From Mycobacterium sp. (lineage in GTDB: Bacteria; Actinomycetota; Actinomycetes; Mycobacteriales; Mycobacteriaceae): DNA of 39,077 bases. A program made the translations under genes and the position numbers. Shown here one piece after another: positions 7,779-16,051 of the stretch. Every line of letters begins with the position of its first letter. The stretch's first letter is position 1. The stretch spans positions 1-39,077 of the forward strand of contig JAOPWT010000619.1 of assembly GCA_025965555.1 (NCBI GenBank), written 5' to 3'. The notes under the pieces are model-generated. The model searched no databases and had not been told where the DNA came from. It was given only the letters and a program-made list of their open reading frames with translations.

Positions 7779-7784
7779 TCAATG

Positions 7785-7799
7785 TGTGGAAATTTCACA
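7785..7799. promoter_or_regulatory. Candidate operator palindrome 1
   Basis: TGTGGAAATTTCACA: inverted repeat with one mismatched pair around a central base. Confidence 0.45.
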
Positions 7800-7847
7800 G
7801 CGATGAACTCCAGTTCCGGCACGAATAGCCATGATCAGCGGATGGGA

Positions 7848-7859
7848 TGTGAATTTACA
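7848..7859. promoter_or_regulatory. Candidate operator palindrome 2
   Basis: TGTGAATTTACA: one mismatched pair, resembles site 1. Confidence 0.4.
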
Positions 7860-7867
7860 ACAGCTTG

Positions 7868-7882: not shown

Positions 7883-7979
7883 ATTTCGCGCGAGATCGGT
7901 CAGACGGGTGATCTCAACCTGGTGACACGGGCCACGCGCCACATGCGGCGCAGTGGCGGGTGTGGTGGGATCAACCCCT

Positions 7980-10900
7980 ATGGGTATCAAGGTGGCGCTG
8001 GAGCATCGCACCAGTTACACGTTCGACCGACTGGTAGAGGTCTTTCCACACGTCGTCCGTCTGCGTCCGGCGCCGCACTCGCGCACCCCGATCGAGGCGT
8101 ATTCGCTCCAGGTCGAACCCGCGGATCACTTCATCAACTGGCAACAGGACGCGTTCGGAAACTTCCTGGCCCGACTGGTGTTTCCCACCCGCACGCGAGA
8201 GCTCACCATCACGGTCGGGCTGATCGCCGACCTGAAGGTCATCAACCCGTTCGACTTCTTCATCGAGGACTTCGCGGAGAAGTGGCCCTTCGAATATCCG
8301 AAGGCGCTGCTGGAGGATCTCAAGCCGTACCTGCGGCCGGTCGACGAGGACGGGGAGGGCTCCGGCCCCGGTGAGCTCACCACGGACTGGGTCAAGAACT
8401 TCTTCGTGCGCCCCGGGACGCGCACCATCGACTTCCTCGTCGCGCTCAACGGCGCGATCAATGCCGACGTGGGTTACAGCGTGCGCATGGAACCCGGTGT
8501 GCAGACGCCGGACCACACTCTGCGGACCGCCATCGGCTCTTGTCGGGACTCGGCCTGGCTGCTGGTGTCGGTGCTGCGCGAGCTGGGTCTGGCCGCCCGC
8601 TTCGTTTCCGGTTACCTCGTCCAACTGACTTCGGACGTGAAGGCAATGGACGGCCCTTCGGGGCCCATCGCGGACTTCACCGATCTGCACGCCTGGACCG
8701 AGGTGTACATCCCAGGGGCGGGCTGGATCGGCCTCGATCCCACGTCGGCCCTGTTCGCAGGTGAGGGGCACATCCCGCTTTCGGCGACGCCGCACCCGGC
8801 ATCCGCCGCGCCGATCACGGGCGCCACCGAGCCGTGCGAGACGACGCTGGACTTCTCCAACGTCGTCACCCGTGTGCACGAGGATCCGCGTGTCACGCTG
8901 CCCTACACGCCGGCAGCGTGGGATTCCATCGTCGAGTTGGGGGCTGCCGTCGACGCCAGGATGGCCGCCGGTGACGTCCGGCTGACGATGGGCGGCGAGC
9001 CCACGTTCGTCTCGATCGACAACCAGGTCGATCCCGAGTGGACGACCGACGCCGATGGACCGCACAAGCGGGAACGCGCGTCCGTGCTGGCCGCCCGGCT
9101 CAAGTCGATCTGGGCGCCGCAGGGCCTGGTGCAGCGCAACCAAGGCAAGTGGTATCCCGGAGAGCCATTGCCGCGGTGGCAGATCGGTCTGCACTGGCGG
9201 ACCGACGGGCTGCCGCTCTGGGCGAACGACGCGCTGCTGGCCGATCCGTGGGCAGAGCAGCCGAGCGCCCCGGTCGCTCCTGATGCGGGTCAGCAGGTCC
9301 TCGGCGCCATCGCCGCCGGGCTCGGGCTGCCCGCCTCGCAGGTGCGACCCGCCTACGAAGACCCGCTCAGTCGGCTGGCTGCGGCCGTCCGCCAACCCGC
9401 AGGCGAACCGGTCGCCGCAGTCGACGATCTCGAGGCGGACGCGCCCGACGCCAGGGCTCAGCTGCTGGTCCGGTTGGACCAGTCGGTCGCCCAACCCGCC
9501 GCCTACGTGCTCCCGTTGCATCGTCGGGAGGACGACAGTGGCTGGGCCAGTGCAGATTGGCAACTGCGCCGGGGTCGGATCGTCTTGTTGGAAGGGGATT
9601 CACCGGCCGGGCTGCGACTGCCGCTGAATGCCATCAGTTGGCGGCCGCCCCGCGCGTCCTCCACCGCCGATCCGCTCGCCCCTCGCGGCAAGCTGATGAG
9701 TGACGTCGAGCCCGAGGACGCCGAGATCGAAGAGGCCGACGGTGCGCCAGTCACGGCAATGGTCGCCGAGGTCCGCGACGGGGTGCTGTACGTCTTCCTG
9801 CCTCCGACGGAGGAACTCGACCACTTCGTCGACATCGTCACGCGCCTCGAGGCGGCCGCGGCCAAGGCCGACTGCCCCGTGGTGGTGGAGGGCTACGGCC
9901 CGCCGCCCGACGAACGACTCACGTCCATGTCGGTGACCCCCGACCCCGGTGTCATCGAGGTCAACGTCGCGCCGACGGTCAGCTTCGCCTCGCAGCGGGA
10001 ACAGCTCGAAACCCTTTACGAACAAGCACGATTGGCGCGCCTGTCGACGGAGTCGTTCGACTTCGACGGCACGCACGGTGGCACCGGCGGTGGCAACCAC
10101 ATCACTCTCGGCGGGATCAGCCCCGCCGAATCGCCGATGCTGCGCAGGCCCGATCTGCTGGTGTCGATGCTGACGTACTGGCAGCGCCACCCGTCCCTGT
10201 CGTACCTGTTCTCCGGACGATTCATCGGCACCACCTCGCAAGCTCCGCGCGTGGACGAGGGACGCACCGAGTCGCTCTACGAGCTGGAGATCGCCTTCGC
10301 CGAGATCGACCGGCTGACAAGAGGTTCCGGCTCTGCGAAGCCATCACATGGTCACTCCGCAAGCTCCGTTCCGTGGGTCACCGACCGCGCGCTTCGCCAC
10401 CTGCTGACCGACATCACCGGCAACACCCACCGCGCCGAGTTCTGCATCGACAAGCTCTACAGCCCGGACAGCGCACGCGGTCGGCTGGGGTTGTTGGAGC
10501 TTCGTGGGTTCGAGATGCCGCCGCACTTCCAGATGGCGATGGTCCAGTCGTTACTTGTGCGCGCACTGGTGGCCTGGTTCTGGGACGAGCCGCTGCGTGC
10601 CCCGCTCATTCGGCACGGAGCCAATCTGCACGGCCGGTATCTGCTGCCGCACTTCATCATCCAAGACATCGCCGACGTCGCCGCCGATCTGCGGGCGCAC
10701 GGCATCGACTTCGACACCAGCTGGCTCGACCCGTTCACCGAGTTCCGCTTTCCGCGTGTCGGCACCGCGGTGTTCGATGGCGTCGAGATCGAACTGCGTG
10801 GCGCCATCGAACCGTGGAACGTCCTCGGTGAGGAGTCGACGGCGGGGGGCACGGCTCGGTACGTCGACTCGTCGGTCGAGCGGCTCCAGGTCCGCCTGAT

Positions 10901-11324
10901 CGGCGCCGACCGGCACCGCTACGTCGTGACCGCCAACGGCTACCCGATCCCGCTGCTGGCCACCAGCAACTCCGACGTCCAGGTCGGCGGTGTCCGGTAC
11001 CGGGCGTGGCAGCCGCCGAGTGCACTGCATCCCACCATCACCGTGGACAGTCCACTCCGGTTCGAGCTCATCGACACCGCCACCGGAACGTCGCGCGGCG
11101 GCTGCACCTATCACGTCAGCCATCCCGGCGGCCGGGCATACGACAATCCGCCGGTCAACGCCGTCGAGGCTGAGTCGCGGCGCGGCAGGCGCTTCGAGGC
11201 AACCGGATTCACTCCCGGGCAGGTCGACATGTCCGACATTCGGGAGAAGCAGGCCCGTCAGTCCACCGACGTGGGCGCGCCGGGCATCGTGGATCTGCGC
11301 CGGGTGCGTACCGTTCTGCGTTGA
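7980..11324 (+). CDS. Transglutaminase-like domain + DUF2126 putative amidoligase (large protein)
   Basis: ATG at 7980 (MGIKVALEHRTSYTFDRLVEVFPHVVRLRPAP); transglutaminase triad contexts GSCRDSAW / DLHAWTEVYI / GLDPTSALF; DUF2126-like RLTMGGEPTFVSIDNQ and NHITLGG...SPMLRRPDLL. Confidence 0.93.
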   Translation: MGIKVALEHRTSYTFDRLVEVFPHVVRLRPAPHSRTPIEAYSLQVEPADHFINWQQDAFGNFLARLVFPTRTRELTITVGLIADLKVINPFDFFIEDFAEKWPFEYPKALLEDLKPYLRPVDEDGEGSGPGELTTDWVKNFFVRPGTRTIDFLVALNGAINADVGYSVRMEPGVQTPDHTLRTAIGSCRDSAWLLVSVLRELGLAARFVSGYLVQLTSDVKAMDGPSGPIADFTDLHAWTEVYIPGAGWIGLDPTSALFAGEGHIPLSATPHPASAAPITGATEPCETTLDFSNVVTRVHEDPRVTLPYTPAAWDSIVELGAAVDARMAAGDVRLTMGGEPTFVSIDNQVDPEWTTDADGPHKRERASVLAARLKSIWAPQGLVQRNQGKWYPGEPLPRWQIGLHWRTDGLPLWANDALLADPWAEQPSAPVAPDAGQQVLGAIAAGLGLPASQVRPAYEDPLSRLAAAVRQPAGEPVAAVDDLEADAPDARAQLLVRLDQSVAQPAAYVLPLHRREDDSGWASADWQLRRGRIVLLEGDSPAGLRLPLNAISWRPPRASSTADPLAPRGKLMSDVEPEDAEIEEADGAPVTAMVAEVRDGVLYVFLPPTEELDHFVDIVTRLEAAAAKADCPVVVEGYGPPPDERLTSMSVTPDPGVIEVNVAPTVSFASQREQLETLYEQARLARLSTESFDFDGTHGGTGGGNHITLGGISPAESPMLRRPDLLVSMLTYWQRHPSLSYLFSGRFIGTTSQAPRVDEGRTESLYELEIAFAEIDRLTRGSGSAKPSHGHSASSVPWVTDRALRHLLTDITGNTHRAEFCIDKLYSPDSARGRLGLLELRGFEMPPHFQMAMVQSLLVRALVAWFWDEPLRAPLIRHGANLHGRYLLPHFIIQDIADVAADLRAHGIDFDTSWLDPFTEFRFPRVGTAVFDGVEIELRGAIEPWNVLGEESTAGGTARYVDSSVERLQVRLIGADRHRYVVTANGYPIPLLATSNSDVQVGGVRYRAWQPPSALHPTITVDSPLRFELIDTATGTSRGGCTYHVSHPGGRAYDNPPVNAVEAESRRGRRFEATGFTPGQVDMSDIREKQARQSTDVGAPGIVDLRRVRTVLR

Positions 11325-14020
11325 TGGTCCTTCGCCCCAGCGGCCCGCCGGAGCCCAGTCCTGCCATTACCGGTGCAGGCTTCTACAACGAAGCCCGCGC
11401 CGACGACTTGTTGGCCCAGTACCGCGCGGCCCGCGCGCAGGAGCCGCTCTTCGACGTCCGCGGCGGGGCCAGCGGTGGCTATGACGAGTTCGTCGACGCG
11501 GCAGGCAACGTGCGGCCGGCGTGGCAGGAGCTGGCCGAATGTGTCAAGGAGCGTGGCCGATTCGGGCTCGACCGGCTCCGCTCGGTAGTGCGAGGACTGG
11601 TCGACAACGACGGCATCACCTTCGTCCAGGTCGATCACTCGGTCGGACGGCCGGCCACTGACGCCGTGACCAACGGGGACGGGACCCAGGTTCCCGGTCC
11701 GTGGCACCTCGACGGGCTGCCGTTGCTGATTTCGTCGGCGGACTGGGACACCCTGGAGTCCGGGCTGGTGCAACGCTCCCGGTTGTTGGACGCGGTCCTG
11801 ACCGACCTCTACGGGGAGCGCCGGTCAATCACCAGTGGGGTGCTGCCGCCGCAGTTGGTCTTCTCCCACCCCGGCTACCTTCGCGCCGCACGCGGCATCG
11901 AGGTGCCGGGCCGCCATCAGCTGTTCATGCACGGTTGTGACATCAGCCGTCACGGGTCGGGTGAGTTCCTGGTCAACGGTGACTGGACGCAGGCACCGTC
12001 GGGCGCCGGCTACGCGCTGGCCGACCGGCGCGTGGTCGCGCATGCGTTCCCCGATCTCTACGAGCGGATCAGCCCGAGACCTGCGTCCCCTTGGGCGCAG
12101 GCGTTGCGGTTGGCGCTCATCGACGCGGCACCGGAATCGGCAGAACAACCCGTCGTCGTGGTGCTCAGTCCCGGTATCCACTCCGAGACTGCATTCGACC
12201 AGGCGTACCTGGCCAGCGTGCTGGGTTTCCCGTTGGTGGAGAGCGCCGACCTCGTGGTGCGCGATGGCAAGCTGTGGATGCGCTCGCTCGGCACGCTCAA
12301 GCGCGTCGACGTGGTACTGCGCCGGGTCGACGCCGCCTACGCCGATCCGCTTGACCTGCGGGCGGATTCGCGACTCGGCGTCGTCGGCCTGGTCGAGGTG
12401 CTGCGCCGCGGAGCCGTCACGGTCGTCAACACCCTGGGCAGTGGGATTCTGGAAAGTCCTGGGCTGCAGCGCTTCTTGCCCCAGCTTGCCGAACTTCTGG
12501 TCGGCGAGGTGCCGCAGCTGAACATGGCACCGATGTATTGGGGCGGTATCGATCTCGAACGATCGCATCTGCTGAGTCACCTGTCCACTCTGCTGATTCG
12601 CCCCGTCACCGGAGGTGAACCGATCGTGGGCCCGGCGCTGTCGAACGGGGAGCGCGACGAACTGGCGGCGCGCATCGGCGCCACCCCGTGGCAGTGGATC
12701 GGGCAGGAATTGCCGCAGTTCTCGTCGGCGCCGACGGATCATTCGCGCAACGGCTTGTCGCCCGGCAGCGCGGGCATGCGCCTGTTCACCGTCGCGCAGC
12801 GCGGCGGATACGCGCCCATGCTCGGCGGTCTCGGTTATCTCTTGGCGCCCGGCAATGCCGCCTACCGGATGAATACCGTTGCGGCCAAAGATATCTGGGT
12901 CCGCACGCCGACGAGGGTGACGGCCGAGCGCACGCCGGTACCGTCGGTGGAACTGCCTGCGATCACGCCGAGCCCGACCCGCGCCGTCAGCTCGCCGCGC
13001 GTGTTGTCCGACCTCTTCTGGCTCGGCCGCTACTCCGAACGCGCGGAGAGCATGGCCAGGCTGCTCAACGTGACGCGGGAGCGCTACCACGAATTCCGGT
13101 ACCGGCAGGACATGCCGGGCAGTGAGTGCGTGCCGGTGCTGCTGGCCGCGCTCGGGCGCATCACCGGCACCGACACGGGGGCTGCTGGCGACGACGCCGA
13201 GGTGATCGCGATCGCGCCGACCACGCTGTGGGCGTTGACGGCCGACCGACATCGCGCCGGGTCGTTGGCGCAGTCGGTGGAGCGGCTCGGGTTGGCCGCC
13301 CGCTCGGTGCGCGACCAGATGTCGAACGACACGTGGATGGTGCTGGCCGCGGTCGACCGCGCCGTGATGCGCCCGTCGGTGACGCCGCCGGATTCACACA
13401 CCGAGGGCGAGAGCTATCTCGCGGCCGCGCACAGCCAGACGCTGGCGGGCATGCTGGCGTTGTCCGGGGTGGCAGCCGAGTCGATGGTGCACGACGTCGG
13501 CTGGACGATGATGGACATCGGCAAACGCATCGAACGGGGCATCTGGCTGACCGCGCTGATGCGTGCGACCCTGAACAAGGTTCGCAGTCCCGGCGCCGAG
13601 CAGACCATCACCGAGTCCACGTTGGTGGCGTGCGAGTCGTCGGTGATCTATCGCAGGCGCACCCTCGGCCGGGTGAGCGTGGCCGCGGTGGCGGACCTGG
13701 TGCTGTTCGACGAGGAGAACCCGCGCTCGTTGGCGTACCAGTTCGAACGGCTGCGCGTGGATCTCAAGGCCCTTCCCTCGTCATCCGGGTCGACCCGTCC
13801 CGAGCGGCTCATCGACGAGGTCGGCGCGCGGCTGCGCAGGCTCGATCCCGCCGACTGTGAGGACATCACCGACGGCACGCGGGCCGAGCTGGACGGTCTG
13901 CTGATGAGCATCCACACCGACCTTCGCGATCTGTCGCGCCTGATCACCGCGACGCACCTGTCGCTGCCCGGCGGAATGCAGCCACTGTGGGGTCCGGACG
14001 AGCGGAGGGACCTCCCGTGA
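11321..14020 (+). CDS. Circularly permuted ATP-grasp (DUF404/DUF407) fused to alpha-E (DUF403) domain
   Basis: ATP-grasp part: GIHSETAFDQAYLASVLGFPLVESADLVVRDGKLWMRSLGTLKRVDVVLRRVD...NTLGSGILESPG; alpha-E part: LSDLFWLGRYSERAESMARLLNVTRERY; 4-nt overlap with previous gene. Confidence 0.93.
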   Translation: MMVLRPSGPPEPSPAITGAGFYNEARADDLLAQYRAARAQEPLFDVRGGASGGYDEFVDAAGNVRPAWQELAECVKERGRFGLDRLRSVVRGLVDNDGITFVQVDHSVGRPATDAVTNGDGTQVPGPWHLDGLPLLISSADWDTLESGLVQRSRLLDAVLTDLYGERRSITSGVLPPQLVFSHPGYLRAARGIEVPGRHQLFMHGCDISRHGSGEFLVNGDWTQAPSGAGYALADRRVVAHAFPDLYERISPRPASPWAQALRLALIDAAPESAEQPVVVVLSPGIHSETAFDQAYLASVLGFPLVESADLVVRDGKLWMRSLGTLKRVDVVLRRVDAAYADPLDLRADSRLGVVGLVEVLRRGAVTVVNTLGSGILESPGLQRFLPQLAELLVGEVPQLNMAPMYWGGIDLERSHLLSHLSTLLIRPVTGGEPIVGPALSNGERDELAARIGATPWQWIGQELPQFSSAPTDHSRNGLSPGSAGMRLFTVAQRGGYAPMLGGLGYLLAPGNAAYRMNTVAAKDIWVRTPTRVTAERTPVPSVELPAITPSPTRAVSSPRVLSDLFWLGRYSERAESMARLLNVTRERYHEFRYRQDMPGSECVPVLLAALGRITGTDTGAAGDDAEVIAIAPTTLWALTADRHRAGSLAQSVERLGLAARSVRDQMSNDTWMVLAAVDRAVMRPSVTPPDSHTEGESYLAAAHSQTLAGMLALSGVAAESMVHDVGWTMMDIGKRIERGIWLTALMRATLNKVRSPGAEQTITESTLVACESSVIYRRRTLGRVSVAAVADLVLFDEENPRSLAYQFERLRVDLKALPSSSGSTRPERLIDEVGARLRRLDPADCEDITDGTRAELDGLLMSIHTDLRDLSRLITATHLSLPGGMQPLWGPDERRDLP

Positions 14021-14997
14021 CGGACGGTGCCGGCGGTCCCCCCACTCGCGGGGGAGAGCGCAGCGACCGCGGATACGAGGTGGGTCCGACTTCCGTGGCG
14101 GGCGCTAGGTCATACGAGGTCACGCACCGGACGATGTACCACTACTCCGACGACGTGACCAGCTCCTACGGCCGTGGCTTCCTCACCCCGCGGGACTCGA
14201 CGCGCCAGCGGTGCCTGTCCCACGAGCTGGTCATCGATCCCGAGGCGTCCGACAGTTCGACGAGTCGCGACGGCTACGGCAACGTCAGCTCCTACTTCCA
14301 CGTCACCGAACGTCATCGGGCCCTGACGATCACCAGCCACTCGGTTGTCGAGGTCGACCCGCCGCCCGCCGGGCTGTATTCGAGCGGGTCGGCCCTCGCG
14401 CCGTGGGAGATCTCCCGACCCGTCGGCACCGACGGTGCGTTGGCCGTCGAGTTCACACTCGACCTGCAGAAGCCCGAGATCACCGATGCGCTTCGCGACT
14501 ACGCCGCGCCGAGCTTTCAAGCCGAGCGACCGCTGATCGAGGTACTCCGAGACCTGAACACCAGGATCAATCACGACTTCACCTCTCGCTCGGGATCGAC
14601 GACGGTTTCCACCAGGGTTGGCGAGGTTTTGGCGGCAGGCGAGGGGGTATGTCAGGATTTCGCCCGGCTCGCGATCGCTTGCCTGCGCGCCAACGGTCTC
14701 GCCGCCAGCTACGTGTCCGGCTATCTCGCGACGGACCCCCCTCCTGGAAAGGAACGCATGGTCGGGATCGACGCGACCCACGCCTGGGCATCGGTGTGGA
14801 CGCCGCAGAATCAGTGGCTGGAGTTCGACCCGACCAACGACCAGATGGTCGACGAACGTTACGTGGTGGTCGGATTCGGCCGCGACTACGCCGACGTGCC
14901 ACCGCTGCGCGGCATCATCTACACCGACTCGGAGAGCAGCAAGATCGACGTGTCCGTCGACGTGGCGCCCTTCGAGGGAGGAATCCTTCGTGCGTGA
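14017..14997 (+). CDS. Transglutaminase family protein
   Basis: GTG at 14017 overlapping the previous stop by 4 nt; YEVTHRTMYHYSDDVTSSYGRGFLTPR N-terminus; triad contexts GEGVCQDFARL / DATHAWASVW / EFDPTNDQ. Confidence 0.93.
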   Translation: MTDGAGGPPTRGGERSDRGYEVGPTSVAGARSYEVTHRTMYHYSDDVTSSYGRGFLTPRDSTRQRCLSHELVIDPEASDSSTSRDGYGNVSSYFHVTERHRALTITSHSVVEVDPPPAGLYSSGSALAPWEISRPVGTDGALAVEFTLDLQKPEITDALRDYAAPSFQAERPLIEVLRDLNTRINHDFTSRSGSTTVSTRVGEVLAAGEGVCQDFARLAIACLRANGLAASYVSGYLATDPPPGKERMVGIDATHAWASVWTPQNQWLEFDPTNDQMVDERYVVVGFGRDYADVPPLRGIIYTDSESSKIDVSVDVAPFEGGILRA

Positions 14998-16051
14998 CTT
15001 CATCTGCCCTAACTGTGGGCAGCACCTGGCGTTCGAGAACTCGGTTTGCCTGAACTGCAAGAGCAAGCTTGGATTTTCGCTCGACGACAGGGCGTTTCTC
15101 GTCATCGCGTCAGGCGCCGAGAGCGAGCACGGCGGCGCCGTCGATGCCAGCGAGTACCAACTGTGTGCGAATCTGCATGCGGCCGAGTGCAATTGGTTGG
15201 TCAGGGTGGCTCCGGTACGGCAGTTGTGCACGTCGTGTGCGCTGACCAGGATCCGGCCCAACGATGCCGACAAGAAGGCAATGGCGTCCTTCGCCATCGC
15301 CGAGAAGGCCAAGCGCCGGCTGATCGTCGAACTGGTGGATCTCAAGCTGCCCATCGTCGGCCGGGACGAGGATCCGAACTACGGCCTGGCCTTCGATCTA
15401 CTTTCGAGCGAGCTCGAGAAGGTGTTCACCGGCCACGAGAACGGGGTCATCACCCTCGACCTCGCCGAGGGCGACGACGTGCATCGCGAGCAGTTGCGCG
15501 TCGCGATGGCCGAGCCGTACCGCACGCTGCTCGGGCACTTCCGCCACGAGATCGGGCATTACTACTACTACCGGCTGGTGGGCACCGCCTCGGAATATCA
15601 GCAGACGGCCCGCGAACTGTTCGGCGACGCGGAGGCCGATTACCAGGCTGCGCTGGACCGCCACTACAGCGAGGGCGCGCCTCCCGGGTGGGAGTCGAGC
15701 TACGTCTCGTCGTATGCCACCATGCATCCCGCCGAGGACTGGGCGGAGACGTTCGCGCACTACCTGCACATCCGGGACACCTTGGACACTGCCGCCGCGT
15801 TCAGCTTCGCGCCTGCCGCGGCGACGTTCGAGCGAAGAAACCTCGGCCCCAGCGGATTCGACTCGATCATCGAGATGTGGCTGCCATTGTCGTGGGCGCT
15901 CAACATGGTCAACCGGTCCATGGGCCACGACGATCTCTACCCGTTCGTGCTGCCTGCGAAGGTGCTGGAGAAGATGCGGTTCATCCACACCGTGATCGAC
16001 GAGGTGACCTCGGATCCGGCCAAGCTGGCGGCTGCCAGCGGCACCGGCTAG
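14990..16051 (+). CDS. Putative zinc-binding metallopeptidase with N-terminal zinc ribbon (COG4307-like)
   Basis: GTG at 14990: VRDFICPNCGQHLAFENSVCLNCKSKLGF; second Cys pair LCTSCAL; HExxH motif RHEIGHYYYYRLVG; downstream HPAEDWAETFAHYLHI. Confidence 0.87.
   Translation: MRDFICPNCGQHLAFENSVCLNCKSKLGFSLDDRAFLVIASGAESEHGGAVDASEYQLCANLHAAECNWLVRVAPVRQLCTSCALTRIRPNDADKKAMASFAIAEKAKRRLIVELVDLKLPIVGRDEDPNYGLAFDLLSSELEKVFTGHENGVITLDLAEGDDVHREQLRVAMAEPYRTLLGHFRHEIGHYYYYRLVGTASEYQQTARELFGDAEADYQAALDRHYSEGAPPGWESSYVSSYATMHPAEDWAETFAHYLHIRDTLDTAAAFSFAPAAATFERRNLGPSGFDSIIEMWLPLSWALNMVNRSMGHDDLYPFVLPAKVLEKMRFIHTVIDEVTSDPAKLAAASGTG

Follow-up and report, generated by a model that had tools for sequence, protein, structure and literature searches.

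As early as 2009, gene sets that combine an ATP-grasp ligase, an alpha-E protein and a transglutaminase (TG) were predicted to make peptides or to tag with them, according to the passages of PMC6376114 and PMC5666114 that report Iyer et al. (2009). In the Anbu operon of Yersinia bercovieri, phosphate release from ATP by the ATP-grasp protein, a relative of the one described here, is the only activity shown, and Anbu itself had no peptidase activity in that work (PMC6376114). Here, we describe a cluster of four overlapping plus-strand genes (g1 to g4, 7980-16051) in a stretch of 39,077 nucleotides (nt) from Mycobacterium sp. (contig JAOPWT010000619.1), referred to as the window. The genes encode a TG fused to the putative amidoligase DUF2126 (g1), a circularly permuted ATP-grasp fused to alpha-E (g2), a stand-alone TG (g3) and a zinc-ribbon metallopeptidase of the Peptidase_Mx family (g4). 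We measured the partnership of this peptidase with the fused ligase and found that both co-occur, linked or not. With a probability of about 0.5, we propose that the cluster is a make-and-cut system that acts on an amide or peptide linkage inside the cell. Literature found by family names, which did not cover the original of Iyer et al. (2009), holds no description of the peptidase-ligase link, and priority for it may lie with that work.

Co-occurrence of the metallopeptidase and the fused ligase

Eighty-one genomes of the host's order were surveyed, and their alpha-E genes were sorted by hand, using score, length of the open frame and genomic context, into a type fused to ATP-grasp (23) and a stand-alone type (42). 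Peptidase_Mx lies at <=5 kb from the fused gene in 15/23 cases, and from the stand-alone alpha-E paralogue in 0/42. Counted by genome, the fused gene is present in 19/24 genomes with Peptidase_Mx vs 4/57 without it (19/5/4/53; Fisher 1.8e-10, a p value inflated by kinship among the genomes). In a 120-genome sample of the phylum, alpha-E was found in all genomes with Peptidase_Mx above the cut-off (7/7) vs 20/120 overall, and in the two such genomes that fall outside the window's class (both of family f41) the genes lie within 5 kb. The linkage of the four genes exceeds chance, because it is found again in many actinobacterial genera, as far out as about 45-50% peptidase identity.

The partners also keep company when they are apart. 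Eighteen named genomes, including Serratia inhibens, Pseudomonas and the Bacteroidota Pareuzebyella, carry a peptidase unlinked to the cluster; alpha-E is present in 18/18 of them, the fused type in 15/18 and DUF2126 in 11/18. On the peptidase tree the state switched between linked and unlinked at least 5 times. Linkage was thus gained or lost repeatedly while co-occurrence was kept, and this therefore speaks for a shared function. The first-pass annotation of this DNA had tied its proposal to the co-occurrence of metallopeptidase and ligases, and both the neighbourhood counts and the unlinked genomes leave it standing.

The Peptidase_Mx of Serratia inhibens (locus L098, 10001-10987) shares 63% identity with its mycobacterial counterpart and groups with actinobacterial sequences, which makes it a candidate for horizontal transfer.

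These counts could be read in another way, in which g4 would be a general zinc protease tied to the ligases by descent and sharing no function with them. In this sense, the peptidase occurs in some genomes that lack the fused ligase or is encoded at a distance from it, and an attempt to find a second function for the stand-alone copies from their neighbours was abandoned, as no neighbour recurs beyond close relatives. We consider this explanation improbable in view of the 18 genomes in which unlinked copies coexist with alpha-E, of the repeated changes in linkage state and of an upstream element, described below, that in some loci also precedes the TG-peptidase unit once inverted.

Arrangement, upstream element and loss of the DUF2126 gene

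Conserved across the mycobacterial loci examined, the cluster occurs in two arrangements. Most loci of fast-growing mycobacteria, and those of Mycobacteroides and Nocardia, are collinear, while in mostly slow-growing loci the TG-peptidase pair is inverted and faces the DUF2126/ATP-grasp pair (convergent loci L060, L064, L065, L067-L070, L072, L073, L077 and L078). An upstream alignment of 31 relatives delimits an element at 7943-7979 on the plus strand of the window. It comprises a -35-like ATGCGG (7943-7948) located 17 nt before a -10-like TGGGAT (7966-7971), the latter being part of the core TGTGGTGGGAT (7961-7971) and placed 8 nt ahead of the ATG of g1. Across relatives, an 11-base core TGTGRTGRGAT precedes the g1 start codon by 5-9 nt, and a CTGCG-like block stands about 17 nt ahead of TGRGAT.

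As the core was defined on g1 upstream regions, its presence there is by construction. Its exact copies in 597 kb of mycobacterial loci, searched on both strands, are all directly upstream of a cluster unit (25/25), with none elsewhere. The TG-peptidase unit is preceded by 3 exact and 3 one-mismatch cores in 12 convergent loci vs 0/19 collinear ones, and the same search matches about 0.5% of random 150-nt stretches, which is the background for the TG-peptidase side of the convergent loci. A close copy at the second unit is absent from 6/12 convergent loci, and the TG-side copies are without the -35-like block. When 5 whole mycobacterial genomes were searched, 6/11 core matches fell at cluster units, and one convergent genome had them at both of its units. 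From its layout, we propose that the element may be a leaderless promoter, with transcription starting at the start codon itself. The view of the metallopeptidase and the ATP-grasp/alpha-E/TG genes as a functional set is thus sustained by co-occurrence whether linked or not, by joint retention after inversion and by a partly common upstream element.

The g1 gene behaves differently. The TG-DUF2126 gene has been lost or is fragmentary in three separate cases within Mycobacterium, one metagenome assembly (L053) and two isolates (L055 and L077), and all three retain the upstream element together with the ATP-grasp/alpha-E, TG and peptidase genes. In L055 the deletion fuses the g1 start region straight to the ATP-grasp frame. 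DUF2126 is also absent from 8/23 fused clusters in the order. Because it was lost three times with the rest kept and is absent from those 8/23, the core consists of ATP-grasp/alpha-E, TG and peptidase, and DUF2126 is accessory. The earlier idea of a single make-and-trim pathway therefore needs to be amended: the metallopeptidase and the ATP-grasp/alpha-E/TG genes stand as a functional set, and a requirement for both ligase modules is not supported.

This loss bears on protein tagging, where the ligases would link proteins of the cell to an amino acid or a short peptide that g3 and g4 would remove, as in pupylation or in the proposals made for Anbu operons (PMC6376114). DUF2126 has been placed in the ligase superfamily of the Pup ligase PafA (PMC2588565), but this putative PafA-like ligase is precisely the part that is lost. 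Moreover, the overlapping genes leave no space inside the cluster for a small open reading frame (ORF) encoding a tag, although a tag gene elsewhere is possible, and no conserved Pup-like ORF was described near the DUF2126 family (PMC2588565). We therefore hold tagging to be unlikely. The locus had been annotated as a candidate peptide-synthesis or protein-tagging system; its members are, by their domains, of the predicted ATP-grasp/alpha-E/TG kind, and the idea itself is that of Iyer et al. (2009), hence not new.

Genes, active sites and predicted chemistry

The four plus-strand ORFs have the strong G+C bias at third codon positions that marks real genes, and ORFs, codon bias and Pfam matches bear out the domain content first given to them. 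The g1 gene (7980-11324) starts at an ATG that is backed by the conserved spacing to the upstream element. We place the start of g2 (11324-14020) at the ATG at 11324, within TGATG, which is kept as TRATG (TGATG/TAATG) in most mycobacterial relatives. The g1/g2 overlap is hence 1 nt and not the 4 nt (11321-11324) originally assigned, which come from a TTG at 11321 that is not conserved. The other two overlaps had been read correctly, 4 nt between g2 and g3 (14017-14020) and 8 nt between g3 and g4 (14990-14997), and both are kept in most collinear Mycobacteriaceae loci; g3 spans 14017-14997 and g4 14990-16051.

Both flanks are on the opposite strand, a sugar ABC transporter/kinase/DeoR operon 5' of the cluster and an NAD epimerase 3' of it, and were judged unrelated to it. 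Between the DeoR gene and g1 (7784-7861) we observed two A+T-rich palindrome-like sites, GTGTGGAAATTTCACAG and GTGAATTTACAAC, which probably serve as operators for the divergent sugar-transport operon and not for the cluster. The nearest named match of the g4 peptidase is from Mycolicibacterium hodleri (91% identity), and the host is a mycobacterium close to this species.

By Pfam, g1 contains Bact_transglu_N (7995-8225), Transglut_core (8415-8741) and DUF2126 (8829-11300; 1147.9 bits), g2 contains CP_ATPgrasp_1/2 (11720-12835; 402/417 bits) fused to Alpha-E (12995-13960; 228 bits), and g3 contains Bact_transglu_N and Transglut_core (within 14017-14997). In g4, Zn_ribbon_DZR_6 (14999-15265; 79.5 bits) is followed by Peptidase_Mx (PF15887; 15284-15994; 339 bits). 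A search of NCBIfam gave no matches. The catalytic Cys/His/Asp of the two TGs, previously described as intact, are invariant in both domains (g1 and g3) among 18 sequences from several families; in g3 they are Cys212, His255 and Asp271 (codons starting at 14650, 14779 and 14827). In 22 sequences of g4, the HExxH motif (15545-15559; H186-E187-H190), D250 and E253 are invariant, and the zinc-ribbon cysteines C6, C9, C20, C23, C59, C67 and C80 are kept.

The structure model of g4 is confident (predicted local distance difference test score, pLDDT, 87). None of the solved structures matched it at E <= 0.001, its best fold match being an uncharacterised Bacteroides metallopeptidase, 4l7a, above this limit (E=4e-3). 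As the remaining matches share just the general HExxH peptidase fold, assignment of Peptidase_Mx by fold was dropped. For g2, the PDB homologue is 3n6x (E=2e-90), annotated as a putative glutathionylspermidine synthase. A profile search found no PDB relative of DUF2126.

Homology gives the classes of chemistry, and a make-and-cut sequence can be proposed from them. The ATP-grasp/Alpha-E protein g2 would activate a carboxylate with ATP and then join it to an amine, the papain-like g3 would transfer or hydrolyse amide bonds of the product, and g4 would be the dedicated peptidase that trims or dismantles it. The g1 protein, with its putative glutamine-synthetase-like ligase, may act as a second, accessory ligase, which was lost in some lineages. 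A very different role, extracellular proteolysis with g3 as an exported serine protease, would follow from the report that recombinant Rv2569c of M. tuberculosis cleaves casein and E-cadherin, is inhibited by 4-(2-aminoethyl)benzenesulfonyl fluoride (AEBSF) and phenylmethylsulfonyl fluoride (PMSF) and is localised in the cell wall (PMC11081392). We regard this as highly improbable for the cluster, since g3 belongs to the TG-core proteins and keeps an invariant Cys-His-Asp, shows no evident signal peptide when its sequence is inspected by eye, and sits among ATP-using ligases. The serine-protease reading of Rv2569c was built on inhibitor tests, and the wording of that report, from which 'catalytic', 'triad' and 'active site' are absent, points to no catalytic mutant (PMC11081392). 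It seems worth re-testing, because the family has a conserved Cys-His-Asp and adjoins ligases.

A nitrogen-related role of the make-and-cut system is plausible by analogy with related clusters. That of Burkholderia cenocepacia is NtrC/sigma54-dependent (PMC5491218). In P. putida, PP2685-PP2687, of which PP2686 is annotated as TG-like, rose 6.6- to 11.1-fold in one tabulated nitrogen-limited comparison and 2.6- to 4.6-fold in the other (PMC3325844). In marine metagenomes, related domains vary together with urea genes (PMC3597751), and the Streptomyces TG gene SCO1086 carries a strong ARG box and is ArgR-repressed (PMC3293853). The same control by nitrogen limitation or NtrC, the co-variation with urea metabolism and the presence of two papain-like domains and a metallopeptidase vs one retained ligase could favour salvage instead. 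Amide- or gamma-glutamyl-linked nitrogen compounds would then be dismantled under nitrogen limitation, and the ATP-grasp protein would make merely an intermediate that is later cleaved. We find this doubtful, as the cluster itself holds no transporter or aminotransferase and, as also applies to the make-and-cut system, the regulatory data were obtained on homologous clusters of other organisms.

Several further points weigh against the make-and-cut proposal. The fused ligase is missing from 5/24 Peptidase_Mx genomes in the order, and for this reason Peptidase_Mx may also work outside the ligase cluster. The DUF2126 model is poor (pLDDT 69), and its fold search gave no significant match, several glutamine synthetases being among the weak ones (E about 0.5). 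No GlnR-type box was found upstream of g1 in 32 upstream regions. Finally, the ligase chemistry is inferred from homology. The cluster is real and conserved, with more support than the first-pass annotation could offer; its mechanism, including the order of steps and a nitrogen-related role, is at present inferential.

Comparison with known systems

The naming of a peptidase partner, the dispensability of DUF2126 and the common upstream element narrow the question to a three-enzyme core that is tractable in M. smegmatis. In M. tuberculosis, we take Rv2567-Rv2569c to belong to the cluster's other families. Rv2566-Rv2569c resembles the present cluster in its families and is convergent, as are slow-growing loci, whereas the four genes of the window are collinear and overlapping. 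Rv2566, the g1 orthologue, has been classed as a carboxylate-amine ligase (PMC2588565), and Rv2567 appears in a table of ten proteins that are abundant in chronic M. tuberculosis infection (PMC2978697).

The host genome has a second, stand-alone cluster of three genes, CP_ATPgrasp, Alpha-E and transglutaminase (L137, 3630-7240), which differs in having no DUF2126, metallopeptidase or upstream element; its ATP-grasp is 34% identical. No gene of the proteasome family (PF00227) was found in the g1-g4 cluster or beside this paralogue, and PF00227 is matched in the host genome only by two neighbouring genes of another contig, which we read as PrcB/PrcA. In Serratia, the stand-alone alpha-E gene is followed after about 0.9 kb by a weak PF00227 match, where Anbu would be expected, and the fused system and the zinc peptidase are elsewhere. 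This one genome suggests that each cluster type has its own peptidase. We tentatively put forward, at somewhat less than even odds, that bacteria have two parallel amide-bond systems: a stand-alone ATP-grasp/alpha-E/TG type that would use Anbu in some lineages, and a fused type served by Peptidase_Mx, which would act in trans even when unlinked. In mycobacteria, a cluster-specific promoter element would control the latter, and DUF2126 would be optional, not core.

Glutathionylspermidine synthetase/amidase follows a similar logic: one amide is formed by an ATP-grasp ligase and broken again by a papain-like amidase. The likeness lies in an ATP-grasp ligase paired with a papain-like enzyme, and the nearest PDB entry of g2 carries that (putative) annotation; the papain-like family is a different one, and Alpha-E and metallopeptidase are missing there. 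Another close system is the ATP-grasp/alpha-E/TG/Anbu operon predicted by Iyer et al. (2009), of whose kind the present cluster is most likely a variant; shared are the circularly permuted ATP-grasp, Alpha-E, Bact_transglu_N with Transglut_core, a peptidase and the predicted role in peptide synthesis or tagging. What sets the cluster described here apart is the fusion of ATP-grasp with Alpha-E, the additional TG-DUF2126 protein, and a zinc-ribbon metallopeptidase in place of the Ntn-hydrolase Anbu.

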